Shown one piece after another: positions 21,431-63,447 of a stretch of DNA of 64,000 nucleotides. The stretch spans positions 62,001 to 126,000 of the forward strand of contig PGXO01000002.1 of the NCBI GenBank assembly GCA_002839185.1. Reading direction: 5' to 3'. Under the pieces are notes generated by a model. It did not search any database and was not told where the DNA came from. It saw only the letters and a list, made by a program, of their open reading frames with translations. Positions within the stretch are counted from its first letter, which is position 1. Each line of letters opens with the position of its first letter. A program made the translations under genes and the position numbers. The stretch comes from Synergistetes bacterium HGW-Synergistetes-1. Lineage in GTDB: Bacteria > Synergistota > Synergistia > Synergistales > Synergistaceae.

Positions 21431-22459
21431 CTAAATCCAGCGGACGTTTTCCGGTGAAAAGGACAGAGTGACTTCTGATGCAGGGGAGATCTGCACTTCT
21501 TTTATTTTTTCGACCGGCATCCGTGACTTCAGGATAATATCGCCTGTCTGAACTGAAATGAGGGCTGATCCGGTTGCTCTCTCAAGCGCCATGCTTGTGA
21601 CCGTTCCCCTGAGCCTGTTCGCATATAAAGAGACTATTTCGCTATCCGTTATCAGCTCGATATCCGAAGGGTTTAGCACTGCTGCGTGAAGTTCCGCCTC
21701 TTCCTTTATGAGGGCATGGATCTTCTGTCCGTCGGTCAATGTTCTGACTACGCTCCCGTTCTCCCTGATCCACGGTCCGTGTATCAGGTTTTCGGTCCCG
21801 TGTCCTATTATCTTCCCGCGGAAAAGGCTTATTATGTCCGTAGATACCTCAGTAAGCCAGGGAAGGTCGTGAGTGGCTACTATTACAGTTGTTCCCCACT
21901 CTTTCCATGCTGATACAGCAGCCTCTTTGACAAGTAAAGCACTTGATTCGTCCACGTTTGCGGTAGGTTCGTCAAGGATAAGTACTTTGGGATGGAGCGC
22001 CAGCCTTGCGGCCAGGGCCACACGCTGGACTTCACCGCCGGAGAGTCTGTACCATGGTCTATGGGCAAATTTTGATGGAGAGAGTCCAACCCGTTCAAGA
22101 GAATCATGGACTCTTTCTTCAAGGCCGGCTGTCTCACTTCTCAGCCTCAGTCCATATGCGATGTTTTCAAAAACAGACCTTTTCAGAAGGTAGGAATTTT
22201 GAAGGAGATATGTGACATTTTTTCTTATGTCGACCTCTTTACCCGAAGGATCAAGGCCGCCGAAAAAAAGAGAACCGCCTGTGTAAGGTTCAAGGAAAGC
22301 CAGGACCCTCAGAAGTGTTGATTTGCCGCTTCCGTTGGGGCCTACTATTCCGGTTACGCTGCCCTCGCATATTCTCAGATAGTCGATATTGATAGTCTGA
22401 GGCCCTTTTCCGTAGCTGTGAGTCAGGTTTTTGATCTCATAAATGATCCTGGGATCCAT
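21431..22459 (-). CDS. tupC: Tungstate/molybdate ABC transporter ATP-binding protein
   Basis: A 342-residue ATPase, with Walker A GPNGSGKS at residues 40-47, Q-loop, LSGGEVQRVALAARLA signature and ILDEPTANVD Walker B. The C-terminal region from about 255 on resembles a TOBE/MOP oxyanion-binding regulatory domain. It energises tungstate import with TupB and the binding proteins upstream. GGAGGAG lies 5 nt before the ATG. It is the last gene of the minus-strand tup operon, separated from the preceding gene by 113 bp containing two GC-rich hairpins. Confidence 0.85.
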   Translation of the reverse strand: MDPRIIYEIKNLTHSYGKGPQTINIDYLRICEGSVTGIVGPNGSGKSTLLRVLAFLEPYTGGSLFFGGLDPSGKEVDIRKNVTYLLQNSYLLKRSVFENIAYGLRLRSETAGLEERVHDSLERVGLSPSKFAHRPWYRLSGGEVQRVALAARLALHPKVLILDEPTANVDESSALLVKEAAVSAWKEWGTTVIVATHDLPWLTEVSTDIISLFRGKIIGHGTENLIHGPWIRENGSVVRTLTDGQKIHALIKEEAELHAAVLNPSDIELITDSEIVSLYANRLRGTVTSMALERATGSALISVQTGDIILKSRMPVEKIKEVQISPASEVTLSFSPENVRWI

Positions 22460-22572: not shown

Positions 22573-23421
22573 TTACTTGGGATGCTTTTTGTTCCACTGG
22601 TCTGAGTTGGGGAAGAAGAGCGGTTCTCCGTACTGCTTGACCTTGAAATCCTTAATTATCATCTGAGCGTCGTCATCGCAGAGCCAGTCAACGAATTTTA
22701 CAACATCTGCGTTGTTGACGTTCGGGAATCTCTTGGGACTGACTTCTATCGCAGCGATGAGGTTGAGAAGGATCGGATCGCCCTCTACAAGCGGAACGAT
22801 CTTCAATCCCTTTTTCTTGGTCAGGTATGTTGCCCTGTCCATTATCGTATATGCGTTGCGCTTGTCTGTGAAATCAGTTGTTGCTCCGTTGCCGAGCTTG
22901 CCAAGCGAGAAAACTGTGTACCACTCGTCTTTCTCTCCGTCGGGCGTAATGCCTGCGGCCTTCCATACGTTCATCTCTGAAACGTAGGTCCCGGACATGT
23001 CGCCGCGGCTGATAAAGGGAACACCCTTTGCGGCTATTGTTTTAAACGCTTCGGCGGCCGACTTCATGCCCTTGATCCCCGCAGGATCTTCCTTTGGACC
23101 GAGGATGACAAAGTCATTGTACATTATGTCCTTACGGTTCTGTCCGAAACCATCCTTGATGAACTGGTCCTCAAGAGCTCTCGCGTGTACGACGACCATG
23201 TCAAAATCTCCGGTCTTTGCCTTATTAAGTGTGGCGCCTGTTCCTGCCTTTTCAATTACGAAGTCAGTTCCGGTCTTCGCTTTATATGTTTCAGCGAGAA
23301 GAGGGATTATTCCGGCGTCTACCGGACCGATAGTGCTCGAGAGTTTAATTGTCCCGGCAAATGCGGGGATGGAAAATAGCAATATGAGGGTTAATGCAAG
23401 TGCTGATCTGACCTTTCTCAT
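22573..23421 (-). CDS. Tungstate-type ABC transporter substrate-binding protein (second copy)
   Basis: A 282-residue periplasmic binding protein with a signal peptide (residues 1-22, ending AFA). The mature part follows the TupA plan: an opening strand with S-T-x-G-P-x-x-A-G, then IEKAGTGATLNKAKTGDFDMVVVHA and MYNDFVILGPKEDPAGIKG. It resembles the binding protein at 24233 but is clearly diverged, with different N-terminal ligand-loop residues, so it may prefer another oxyanion or affinity range. It sits between the permease and ATPase genes. Confidence 0.75.
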   Translation of the reverse strand: MRKVRSALALTLILLFSIPAFAGTIKLSSTIGPVDAGIIPLLAETYKAKTGTDFVIEKAGTGATLNKAKTGDFDMVVVHARALEDQFIKDGFGQNRKDIMYNDFVILGPKEDPAGIKGMKSAAEAFKTIAAKGVPFISRGDMSGTYVSEMNVWKAAGITPDGEKDEWYTVFSLGKLGNGATTDFTDKRNAYTIMDRATYLTKKKGLKIVPLVEGDPILLNLIAAIEVSPKRFPNVNNADVVKFVDWLCDDDAQMIIKDFKVKQYGEPLFFPNSDQWNKKHPK

Positions 23422-23459: not shown

Positions 23460-24158
23460 CTAGCTGTTTCCCACTCTTCTCCTTAGAAAAGAAAGGGAGA
23501 TGTTCAATGCGAATGAAATTGAGAGCAAAACTATTCCCAGGGCTATGCCAAGGGCGAAATCTCCCTTGCCTGTCTCAAGCGTTATCGCAGTAGTTATCGT
23601 TCTTGTGTGCCACTTGATGTTTCCGCCCAGCATCATCGCTGAACCTACCTCTCCTATGATCCTTCCGTAGGAGGTCAGCGCGGCGACAAGGATCTGAAAA
23701 CGTCCTTCCCAGAGGCTTGTTACAGCAAGTTTTGCGCCTGAAGCCCCGAGCGTCTGCAGAGTAAGTTTCAGCCTGTTGTCAAGGCCTTCTATAGCAGTGG
23801 CCGTGTAAGAAATAACGATCGGCAGCCCTAGTATGATCTGTCCTATCGCCATTCCGCGAATGGTGAAAAGAAGCTGAAAATCACCGAGGGGACCTCTTCT
23901 CGATATAAAGGCATAAACGAGAAGCCCCACTACAACGGTAGGAAGTGAAAGCAGGGTGTCTGTTATGGTTCTGAGAAGGTGTTTACCGGGGAAATCGAAA
24001 TAACCCAACGCAAAGCCCAGCGGCAGGCCAAGTCCAAGAATAAAGAGCATGGAAAGGCCGGTCAGTCTCAGAGTTGTAAGCACAATATTCACAGTTTCCT
24101 CGTCCATTGATGCAATAAGCCCTATGGACTGGAAAAAACCTTGAATAATGAAATCCAC
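23460..24158 (-). CDS. tupB: Tungstate ABC transporter permease
   Basis: A 232-residue inner-membrane protein with about five membrane segments, the usual TupB size. The cytoplasmic EAA-type loop that contacts the ATPase is seen near ASGAKLAVTSLWEGR. GTG at 24158 is the start, with AAGGAGGG upstream. It lies directly after tupA (74 bp), and its partners are the binding proteins on both sides and TupC. Confidence 0.85.
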   Translation of the reverse strand: MDFIIQGFFQSIGLIASMDEETVNIVLTTLRLTGLSMLFILGLGLPLGFALGYFDFPGKHLLRTITDTLLSLPTVVVGLLVYAFISRRGPLGDFQLLFTIRGMAIGQIILGLPIVISYTATAIEGLDNRLKLTLQTLGASGAKLAVTSLWEGRFQILVAALTSYGRIIGEVGSAMMLGGNIKWHTRTITTAITLETGKGDFALGIALGIVLLSISFALNISLSFLRRRVGNS

Positions 24159-24232: not shown

Positions 24233-25084
24233 TTAGTGTCCGGCTCTGATCTCGGCGTTGGGGAAGAAGAGCTGCTTGCCTTCCAGCTTGAAGTTTGCGA
24301 TATCCTTCTGGACCTTTGAAGAGGTGATCCAGTCGATGTACTTGATGGCAAGGTCGTACTTTGCATGCGGGTGTTTGATAGGGTTGACAGCCATAACACT
24401 GTACATGTTCAGGAGCTGTTTGTCTCCCTCTACTACTATAACGAGCCCCGGTTTGCCTTTGAGATTTGCGTCATATTTAATGAATGTGCCTCTGTCAGCA
24501 AGGGCGTACCCTTTGCGCTCATCAGCGATGTTGATCGTATTGAGCATTCCCTGTCCTGTCTGTACATACCAGGTCGCCTTGTCGAAATCTTTGACTCCGG
24601 CCTCTTTGAGAAGTTTAAGTTCTGCTGAATGTGTACCGGATTTGTCCGCGCGGCTCACAAGAGGCTGTCCCTTCGCGGCTATTGTCGCAATCGCCTGGGT
24701 TATGGGTTTGCCCTTTATACCTGCCGGGTCGTTTGCGGGGCCGATCAGGACGAAGTCGTTGTACATGACCTTACGTCGGTTAACACCTGCGCCGTCTGAC
24801 ATAAACTTGTCTTCGGCTGCCGGATCATGGGTAAGGACTACGTCAACATCTCCGTTACGTCCGTACTCAAGTGCCTTTCCTGTTCCGACGGATACCCACT
24901 GGATCTCGATCCCTGTATCCTTCAGCAGGATAGGAGCCATATAATCGAGAAGGCCTGTATTGTCGGTGCTGGTAGTTGTTGCCATTCTGAGAACGGGCGG
25001 TTTGGCATATGCAAATGAGCCCAAAGTGAGCATGCATACTGCAATGATGGTGATAAAAAGTAAGAAACGTTTGTTGCTTTTCAT
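24233..25084 (-). CDS. tupA: Tungstate-binding periplasmic protein
   Basis: A 283-residue binding protein with a signal peptide (residues 1-27, ending SFAYA). The mature N-terminus has RMATTTSTDNTGLLDY, the TTTSTxxTGLLDYL signature of the tungstate-specific TupA family whose Thr/Ser residues ligate the oxyanion. GTGKALEYGRNGDVDVVLTHDPAAE and MYNDFVLIGP follow. Tungstate supports aldehyde oxidoreductases and formate dehydrogenases in anaerobes. The start at 25084 has AGGAGGGG about 8 nt upstream; a longer frame to 25201 would hide the signal peptide. It is the first gene of the operon, 3' of two riboswitch-like elements. Confidence 0.88.
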   Translation of the reverse strand: MKSNKRFLLFITIIAVCMLTLGSFAYAKPPVLRMATTTSTDNTGLLDYMAPILLKDTGIEIQWVSVGTGKALEYGRNGDVDVVLTHDPAAEDKFMSDGAGVNRRKVMYNDFVLIGPANDPAGIKGKPITQAIATIAAKGQPLVSRADKSGTHSAELKLLKEAGVKDFDKATWYVQTGQGMLNTINIADERKGYALADRGTFIKYDANLKGKPGLVIVVEGDKQLLNMYSVMAVNPIKHPHAKYDLAIKYIDWITSSKVQKDIANFKLEGKQLFFPNAEIRAGH

Positions 25085-25196
25085 GGGGATACCCCTCCTT
25101 AAAAGATGTATTGGTGCTAAAAACCTTTTTGAGACCTTGAAGAATAGGAGGGCATTGATATTGATATCGCACGTGGCGAAATATTTGCCCCCTTTC

Positions 25197-25304
25197 CACA
25201 ATGGGAGACGGATCCGTTTCCAGATCCGCCCTAACGTCTGTTTTCCATAGCATGCGCCGCAGGAAAAACAGATTCAGGGTAGTCTCTTGATTTGATCAGG
25301 AGAC
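25197..25304 (-). ncRNA. Moco/Tuco-riboswitch-like element, tupA-proximal copy
   Basis: This element shares ordered blocks with the copy at 25554-25649 (plus-strand sense: CCTTTCC 25201-25207, GGGAG 25213-25217, CCGTTTCCAG 25224-25233, CCCTAAC 25239-25245). On the minus-strand RNA the blocks build a closing stem GUCUCC (25304-25299) with GGGGGC (25202-25197) and a hairpin CGGAUCUG-GAAA-CGGAUCCG capped by a GAAA tetraloop. The position before a tungstate importer suggests the molybdenum/tungsten-cofactor riboswitch class; the class assignment is inference. It has no obvious terminator of its own and ends 113 nt before the tupA start, so control would be by another mechanism. Confidence 0.55.
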
Positions 25305-25340
25305 AAAAGCCATAAAAGTAAAATATATGGCATAGACGTA

Positions 25341-25369
25341 ATTCTACACTATTTATTTGTTTTTGTCGT
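25341..25369 (-). promoter_or_regulatory. Possible internal promoter for tupA
   Basis: On the minus strand, ACGACA (25369-25364) and TAGAAT (25346-25341) are spaced by 17 bp, upstream of the second riboswitch-like element and downstream of the TGCAAC palindrome. The -35 match is only 4 of 6. Confidence 0.3.
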
Positions 25370-25404
25370 GAATTTAATAGAAAAAAAGAAAACTTACTAT
25401 TATT

Positions 25405-25419
25405 TGCAACTTAATTGCA
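25405..25419. promoter_or_regulatory. TGCAAC-TTA-ATTGCA palindrome, candidate operator
   Basis: Same 15-bp plan (6-3-6) as the sites before pruA, modA and the Fur-family gene, with one mismatch between half-sites. It lies 321 bp before tupA, between the first terminator and the second riboswitch-like element. Confidence 0.55.
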
Positions 25420-25495
25420 GTTATAAATAATGAAGATGCGAGATCGTTGGGGGCGATCTCGCAAGGGAGGGTTGGGATTTTGTGTAATATCCCTT

Positions 25496-25536
25496 AAAAA
25501 CAGAAATCGGCCGTCCTCACTGGAGAAGACGGCCGA
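25496..25536 (-). terminator. Intrinsic terminator in the tup leader (expression platform)
   Basis: On the minus strand TCGGCCGTC (25536-25528) pairs with GACGGCCGA (25515-25507), followed by TTTCTGTTTTT. It lies 17 nt downstream of the first riboswitch-like element and 412 bp before the first gene, the place expected for a ligand-controlled terminator. Confidence 0.75.
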
Positions 25537-25553
25537 ATAAAGTACAGACAGCC

Positions 25554-25649
25554 GTTCTCCTTTCCAAAGGGAGGCTCCGCCGTTTCCAGCGAAACCCTAA
25601 CGGCCCGGCCCCCATGGATAATATCTTTAGGCGGACAGGCTCGGAGAAC
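25554..25649 (-). ncRNA. Moco/Tuco-riboswitch-like element, promoter-proximal copy
   Basis: A 96-nt segment closed by a perfect stem GUUCUCC (25649-25643) with GGAGAAC (25560-25554). Inside are UCCGCC and GGCGGA, which can pair, and a hairpin UUUCGCUG-GAAA-CGGCGGAG with the same GAAA loop as the second copy but different stem bases, that is, compensatory change. Conserved blocks on the plus strand: CCTTTCC (25559-25565), GGGAG (25569-25573), CCGTTTCCAG (25580-25589), CCCTAAC (25595-25601). Followed by an intrinsic terminator and then the tungstate operon, it should sense a molybdenum or tungsten cofactor; this class assignment was not checked against a covariance model. Confidence 0.65.
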
Positions 25650-25666
25650 AATCGATTACTTTTGCT

Positions 25667-25695
25667 ATCCTACATGTTGGTTGGTAAAAAAACAA
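25667..25695 (-). promoter_or_regulatory. Promoter candidate for the tup leader
   Basis: On the minus strand, TTGTTT (25695-25690) and TAGGAT (25672-25667) are spaced by 17 bp, placing a start about 10 nt before the first riboswitch-like element. Matches are moderate (4 of 6 each). Confidence 0.4.
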
Positions 25696-25830
25696 GTATT
25701 TTGTTCATAAGTGCTCATGCAGTTTGAAATGGTTTTTATGCATCATCCTGCTATAATATCATTGGAAAAGGTCTGATTTTGAATAGAAGTTCAGATAAAA
25801 ATCCAGTTTTTAATTTAAGAGGTGAAGAAC

Positions 25831-26508
25831 ATGACGACTCTGCACTTGCCGAGCAACCTGCCCAAGCCGACGCTTGAGGAGATAAGAAACTGTCCTATCA
25901 GGAGCAGAATAGATAATATTGCAGTGCGGGCGGGCCTCAATCCTCCTCCTTTGGACGGCAGGGACATGATCCTTCACATTTCTGACACCCCTTCGGCCAT
26001 GTTTCCCTACCTGCGGAGAGCCATACAGCGTCTTCGTCCGGCATGGATAGTACATACAGGGGATCTCGTAGATGACATAAAGCTTGAGACCAGGCCGGGC
26101 ATGATAGATCTTTACAGAAAAAAACTTCGTGTGCTTTTGAACCTGCTCACTGACGAAACATGTGGGGCCATCCTTCTTACCGGAAACCATGACCATCTTC
26201 CGAGTTTGCTTGAAATGACAGAGAACTCTTCGATCCAGGTATGGAGCAGGCCCGGTCGTTTTTACATAGGAAGTTTCCGTTTCAGGGCCGGTCATACTTA
26301 TGAGGACGTAATGAACGATGCCGGAGAGTACAACCTCTTTGGACACAGTATGGAACATCCTACTTCTATAGATGAATGCGGAAGGTTTTTTCTGAACGGA
26401 CTTGAAAAAATGCACCTGATACACATGGAGACAGGAGATGTGATCCCTTTCAAATATCCGCCGGGGACGAATGATGCCAGGCTCGAACGTAAACGCATAT
26501 CATTATAA
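25831..26508 (+). CDS. Calcineurin-like metallophosphoesterase
   Basis: A 225-residue protein with most of the metallophosphoesterase motifs in order: HISDTPS (49-55), GDLVDD (77-82), GNHDH (118-122) and FGHSMEH (170-176). In the first motif the usual Asp-x-His is Asp-Thr-Pro, so one metal ligand is missing or supplied by His49, which makes the activity uncertain. Cytoplasmic; substrate unknown. GAGGTG lies 6 nt before the ATG at 25831; a GTG at 25822 overlaps that site. It is followed by an unrecognised gene 15 bp downstream, apparently one operon. Confidence 0.75.
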   Translation: MTTLHLPSNLPKPTLEEIRNCPIRSRIDNIAVRAGLNPPPLDGRDMILHISDTPSAMFPYLRRAIQRLRPAWIVHTGDLVDDIKLETRPGMIDLYRKKLRVLLNLLTDETCGAILLTGNHDHLPSLLEMTENSSIQVWSRPGRFYIGSFRFRAGHTYEDVMNDAGEYNLFGHSMEHPTSIDECGRFFLNGLEKMHLIHMETGDVIPFKYPPGTNDARLERKRISL

Positions 26509-62791: not shown

Positions 62792-63447
62792 AGATGTGAA
62801 AAGAGTAGGTCGTAGGATTTTTACGGATGATTGACCGACATTGATACATTAAGAATCATGAGGTAAATCTCATCTCTTTGTCTTGATCTGTCTCAGCTTT
62901 TATCTACGCGAAAAATGACATATCTGAGCAATTGTACCAAATCTACATAAAATTGCTTGCATCATTTCGATTTATATGATAAAAAGCGACTAGTGATAGC
63001 GGTAATAAGGAGGGTAGGGTATTTAAGTCTATCATCACAAACCGAGTCAAGCATTTTTAAAATCTGACCTAACTGGATTACAGTTATACGAATGGCCATA
63101 CGGACAGCCGGGTCAAATGCCGAACTAGCGATTGTGATATCGTGTTGATGAGCCAGAGCTCAAATTTTGTTGCGGAGACCTCCGCGAAATTGTGTTCATA
63201 AGTTTAGAGTACTTGTGAATGGTCGACATGAGCAGTAAAAGTATATATTACTGTATAGGCTCAAATAAACTACCAATATTTGTATAATACATCAATCAAA
63301 TAAAGTAGGGATCATCTATCAAGTACAACTATCCTGTCTTTTCCCCTGAGGAAGGCGGGTGGTTGTTTTTTATTTTAAGGGGTGTAAAGCAAGCACCCCG
63401 AGTGGATGAACACTCATGCGGAGGCCATTTTCAGAAAGGAGCCTGAG
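62792..63447. other. 656-bp non-coding region before speD
   Basis: No protein-coding gene is supported: all frames are short and lack ribosome-binding sites. The last 120 bp hold a terminator-like hairpin (63333-63377) and two small hairpins, GGGGTG/CACCCC (63379-63384 with 63394-63399) and GAGTG/CACTC directly after it, which would form part of the speD leader. Confidence 0.5.
63333..63377 (+). terminator. Terminator-like hairpin in the speD leader
   Basis: CCTGTCTT (63333-63340) pairs with AAGGCGGG (63352-63359, with G-U pairs), followed by a T-rich tail (TTGTTTTTTATTTT). It lies 70 bp before the speD start, so it could end an upstream transcript or attenuate speD. Confidence 0.45.

Follow-up and report, generated by a model that had tools for sequence, protein, structure and literature searches.

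Why should one leader carry two copies of what looks like the same cofactor riboswitch, set one behind the other ahead of the genes for a metal importer, and do the two copies do the same work? This question is raised by a 570-nt leader on the minus strand of the window, by which we mean the whole 64,000-nt stretch of Synergistetes bacterium HGW-Synergistetes-1 analysed here; the leader is bounded by a divergent phosphoesterase gene (25822–26508, plus strand) and by tupA, which starts at 25084. The answer that we consider probable is that it holds two OFF riboswitches of the P3-lacking, tungsten-cofactor type, of which copy 1 would act by transcription termination and copy 2 on translation, with an internal promoter.

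The first-pass annotation had placed a tungstate importer downstream, and this agrees with the best NCBIfam matches of the operon, TupA, TupB and TupC, although none of these matches reaches the cut-off curated by NCBI, which in so distant a phylum is not surprising. All genes are on the minus strand: tupA for the tungstate-binding protein (24233–25084; NF041772, E 5.3e-96, 321 bits, cut-off 400), tupB for the tungstate permease (23460–24158; NF041773, E 1.8e-81, 273 bits, cut-off 320) and tupC for the ATPase (21431–22459; NF041774, E 4.5e-48, 164 bits, cut-off 400). In the first TupA we read the TTTS motif that PMC5517513 describes for this protein, and among its matches of solved structure are tungstate-binding proteins, including 3lr1. 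With relatives in Synergistaceae the protein is 82–99% identical, in agreement with the placing of the genome in this family. A second TupA-like binding protein (22573–23421; NF041772, E 7.1e-50, 170 bits, below the cut-off), which lacks TTTS by reading, sits between tupB and tupC. Elsewhere in the window, Rfam RF02440 (SpF59 sRNA / ldcC RNA) is matched at 63065–63123 on the plus strand with 53.7 bits (cut-off 37.2), far outside Streptococcus.

Both segments of the leader are Moco/tungsten-cofactor riboswitch aptamers according to the Rfam model. In a search of the 64-kb sequence, RF01055 (Molybdenum/Tungsten riboswitch aptamer) matched in full length on the minus strand at 25658–25541 (copy 1; 77.6 bits, E 4.7e-17) and at 25290–25173 (copy 2; 56.9 bits, E 5.5e-11), so that the two matches are far beyond chance, and both pass the curated cut-off of 36 bits. 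The class, which had been assigned from the tungstate operon and from features of Moco RNAs, is therefore borne out by the covariance model, and only the limits proposed at first (25197–25649) need correction, because they clip both copies. The ordered blocks CCTTTCC, GGGAG and CCCTAAC (in plus-strand sense) were found again in two sets, both on the minus strand and spaced by 250 nt. All parts of the RF01055 core, namely CUCCGAGC, AGGG, GGAAAC, CCUCCC and GGAAAGG, are present in copy 1, whereas copy 2 keeps AGGG, GGAAAC and GGAAA and differs in having CCCUGAA and GUCUCCC. A reading on the opposite strand is ruled out by the Rfam matches, the terminator and the operon, all of which are on the minus strand.

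The proposed structure, a closing stem and a GAAA-capped stem whose bases differ between the copies and still pair, also holds in an alignment of relatives. For the structure with P1, P2, P4 and P5, 94% of the cells pair in copy 1 and 96% in copy 2, and the covariation score exceeded that of all 500 shuffles for each copy; this signal collapses in every slid register. Since P5 is invariant, it adds nothing either way to the covariation test. In the RF01055 alignment, the P3 positions are deleted in both copies.

The absence of P3 is informative because, by a published rule (PMC2408646), RNAs that bear P3 go with molybdenum and those that lack it go with tungsten. The genome contains four RF01055 copies. 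The third copy (contig C7, 56793–56632) bears P3 and precedes a molybdopterin-dependent aldehyde oxidoreductase; the remaining one, also single, is without P3 and stands before a gene for a DcuR/DpiA-like response regulator. To the extent that functions can be assigned to the genes, the rule holds within this genome, because the P3-bearing copy precedes a molybdenum enzyme and the tandem precedes the tup genes. The genome also encodes three members of the aldehyde:ferredoxin oxidoreductase family, whose enzymes typically contain tungsten. Both tandem copies lack P3 and adjoin the tup genes, and from this we infer a tungsten-cofactor ligand. Against this, no Moco RNA is known to bind the tungsten cofactor in vitro; both the molybdenum and the tungsten cofactor are difficult to work with in such assays. 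Deletion of P3 from the Escherichia coli RNA abolished regulation and did not switch the preference (PMC2408646).

Two side observations concern the same genome. The pairing of a P3-lacking Moco RNA with a DcuR/DpiA-like regulator (contig C7, L002 1501–1621 and L142 7661–8356) has similar counterparts, by reading, in related genomes (L081, L082, L085 and L097), and such pairs suggest, from gene order, that the cofactor may control a two-component system. A large molybdopterin oxidoreductase (contig C7, 85277–86539; L140), whose 899-aa reading frame contains a single in-frame TGA, is possibly a selenocysteine formate dehydrogenase.

The whole arrangement is widely maintained. Two RF01055 matches lying 190–270 nt apart and followed by tupA were found in 15 genomes belonging to seven genera of Synergistaceae, among which TupA identity ranges from 73 to 99%, and the 15 aligned leaders share one order: promoter-like element, copy 1, terminator, linker hairpin, promoter-like element 2, copy 2 and ribosome-binding-site region. 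The copies, the terminator, the palindrome and the second promoter, which the first-pass annotation had combined into one scheme, are thus conserved as one arrangement.

The intrinsic terminator reported behind copy 1 was recovered by a pattern scan at 25536–25507 on the minus strand (12 pairs and a T-rich tail), and each of the 15 tandem loci has a terminator of −14 to −26 kcal/mol directly 3' of copy 1. In copy 1, the P1 3' strand with its extension (GGAGAACGGC, 25551–25560, minus strand) has two possible partners, the 5' strand of P1 at 25643–25649 and an antiterminator segment at 25522–25533. The latter duplex, a competing helix of the P1 3' strand and extension with the terminator's 5' arm and loop, was computed in every locus (15/15; −10 to −21 kcal/mol). 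Judged from its sequence, the unit is laid out as OFF switches that act by termination usually are. When the cofactor is abundant, P1 of copy 1 would be stabilised and GGAGAAC tied up, the terminator at 25536–25507 could form, and transcription from the upstream promoter would stop; when it is scarce, GGAGAACGGC would pair with the terminator 5' arm and loop and RNA polymerase would read on. What counts against this account is that folding at equilibrium favours the copy 1 terminator in most sequences, even when P1 is absent; the switch must therefore be kinetic, with the alternative helix forming first, during transcription.

Copy 2 belongs to a divergent subtype. Its P1 and P2 are joined by GAA, not GA; the first P2 pair varies where the others have a fixed G-C; P1 is formed by CCCU with AGGG (the core thus reading CCCUGAA); and the third P4 pair is G-U, with one exception among the sequences counted. 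CCGAG stands instead in copy 1 and in nearly all other Moco RNAs that were read. Every copy 2 examined is of this GAA subtype, as are two single-copy leaders, and in the Synergistota genomes covered it was found solely before tupA; in two genomes of one further genus (g5) it is the sole unit there, with no terminator. A model of the subtype, applied to 149 genomes of Synergistota, gave 74–119 bits for its members and at most 71 bits for other Moco RNAs. In a tree, the copies cluster by position rather than by genome with a split support of 1.00, so the subtypes separated before the genera and the two roles are old; the same clustering rules out a recent local duplication.

These differences are the ground for supposing that the copies sense two ligands, copy 1 the tungsten cofactor and copy 2 the molybdenum cofactor, a nucleotide-bearing cofactor or a precursor, either of which would silence tupA. 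The GAA, the loss of the fixed G-C at the base of P2 and the conserved G-U of P4, set against CCGAG elsewhere, speak for this, as do the restriction of the subtype to tupA and its clear separation by the model. On the other hand, both copies lack P3 and stand before a tungstate importer, for which a molybdenum signal would have no obvious use, and drift tied to a different expression platform could explain the change in P1, though not that in the core. We rate two ligands as rather unlikely. An extended form of the idea, in which copy 2 would be a new specificity class, the leader a two-input, two-level gate and the linker hairpin a third regulatory RNA element acting only on RNA from the upstream promoter, we also consider unlikely; if it is true, the importer would be off when either signal is high.

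Returning to two riboswitches for one cofactor, we consider how RNA may be supplied to them. Before copy 1 lies a promoter-like element, TTGTTT-17-TAGGAT (25667–25695, minus strand), which is a consensus match, and the pattern TTGnnn-17-TAnnAT is kept in all tandem loci (15/15) with a spacing of always 17 nt. The second promoter proposed in the first-pass annotation corresponds to ACGACA-17-TAGAAT before copy 2 (25369–25341, minus strand). It is a weak consensus match with a −35 region that is poor in the window's genus, which counts against its use, but its TGTA[GCA]AAT core is kept in 15/15 related loci. RNA from promoter 2 would bypass copy 1 and be controlled by copy 2 only, and there would then be two supplies of importer mRNA, one gated transcriptionally and the other controlled at translation only.

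Between the terminator and the second promoter-like element is the linker hairpin, which had been described as a palindrome and which a pattern scan placed at 25463–25437 on the minus strand, with the heptaloop CCCCCAA. It is conserved across genera: the loop [AC]CCCCAA and its closing G-C are invariant in the 15 loci, and the stem has 9–12 bp. In 12 aligned sequences, both partners change in eight of the nine stem pairs and 95% of the cells pair, so selection has acted on the element as RNA or, at the least, as a hairpin. Its model found one match in each of six genomes of the genus, the next matches having E of about 0.8, and this single match per genome in six congeners rules out a repeated genome element; Rfam gave no match for it. 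Its tail is weakly T-rich, so it may serve as a back-up terminator or a pause. Single-unit relatives have a similar hairpin with the loop CUCCCAA. In several genera (leaders L077, L088 and L091) a short ACACAAATCTC-like motif occurs twice, once ahead of the linker hairpin and once immediately before the ribosome-binding site of tupA.

The conserved second promoter-like element and the presence of a second terminator-like hairpin between the copies could also mean that copy 1 and its terminator, perhaps with the linker hairpin as a second terminator, make a separate short RNA, while tupA is expressed mainly from promoter 2 through copy 2; genus g5, which has only the copy 2 type before tupA, would fit this. 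We regard such an uncoupling as quite unlikely, since the antiterminator pairing is conserved and the tail of the linker hairpin is weak. Furthermore, in three relatives of three other genera (L043, L095 and L096) the copy 1 type and its terminator stand alone before tupA, where read-through is needed for the gene to be expressed.

In the two-stage reading that we prefer, copy 2 would act close to the start of translation. It lies about 90–120 nt from tupA, whose ribosome-binding site is directly read as AAGGAGGGG (25092–25100, minus strand), and AGGAGGG and CCCATG of this region are invariant in 15/15 loci. An anti-ribosome-binding-site segment, GCCCUCC (25147–25153, minus strand), is predicted to pair either with this site or with the P1 3' strand of copy 2, GGGGGC (25187–25192, minus strand), which can take the segment; the duplex prediction is strong within the window's own genus. 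When copy 2 is bound, its P1 would form and leave segment 25153–25147 free to cover the tupA ribosome-binding site, and when copy 2 is free, the P1 3' strand would capture the segment. Forcing P1 of copy 2 to form lowers the predicted access of the ribosome-binding site in 13 of the 13 distinct loci, modestly overall and by little in several of them; compared with shuffled linkers, the change goes beyond nearly all shuffles in about four loci and is weaker in the rest. Because access falls in all 13 loci, yet stands out clearly from the shuffles in only about four, we rate action of copy 2 on translation as likely, not proven. Frames ending in the conserved CCCTGA, which might have encoded a small leader peptide before copy 2, were seen by reading in some genomes and are missing in others, and were judged to be due to chance.

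If both copies acted at the same level, the tandem would be plain redundancy giving a steeper dose response, as has been proposed in the literature for other tandem riboswitches of the Moco and tungsten-cofactor types (PMC2408646, PMC9481103). Weak terminator-like hairpins 3' of copy 2 in 8 of the 15 loci would favour it; no such hairpin follows copy 2 in the other 7, and several of those present are the alternative helix of the P1 3' strand with a pyrimidine-rich segment. Copy 2 is, moreover, close to the conserved ribosome-binding-site region, and we give redundancy only a small probability. The division of labour between termination at copy 1 and translation at copy 2 thus remains the account that we prefer.

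Two-stage control had been called unusual in the first-pass annotation. The arrangement itself stands, being conserved in 15 genomes, but it is less unusual than was thought, because tandem Moco RNAs and a P3-lacking triple whose first two members are each followed by a terminator were published in 2008 (PMC2408646), and doublets of Moco and of tungsten-cofactor riboswitches appeared again in a survey of 2022 (PMC9481103). The fold, the core of copy 1, the absent P3 and the tungstate-transport context are those of known P3-lacking (Tuco/Wco) Moco RNAs of RF01055, from which copy 2 departs in the near-invariant CCGAG over seven tandem genera and one single-copy genus. The triple of Syntrophomonas wolfei (PMC2408646) likewise has serial P3-lacking aptamers, terminators after the first ones, a long gap ahead of the first gene and molybdenum/tungsten transport genes; here, by contrast, there are two copies of two subtypes, separated by a conserved promoter-like element and a conserved linker hairpin, and the last copy apparently controls translation. 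Pairs combining termination with translation are known for SAM riboswitches (PMC9481103), but the SAM-II/SAM-V and some SAM-II doublets belong to another aptamer family, and here an internal promoter apparently makes it possible to use the second stage alone. In the adenine riboswitch/T-box tandem of Clostridium botulinum (PMC9481103) a promoter between the units also lets the second act alone, although its ligands and classes are different. In the searchable literature, outside which most subscription papers and supplements lie, we found no report of the Synergistaceae tandem, the GAA subtype or the linker hairpin.

How one RNA fold distinguishes the molybdenum from the tungsten cofactor can be approached directly in this genome, which holds a P3-bearing RNA, canonical P3-lacking RNAs and an old, conserved P3-lacking variant. 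The leader appears to extend to a metal cofactor the tandem control by termination plus translation that is known for SAM riboswitches, and if our reading is true, uptake in these bacteria would be shut off twice when the cofactor is plentiful.
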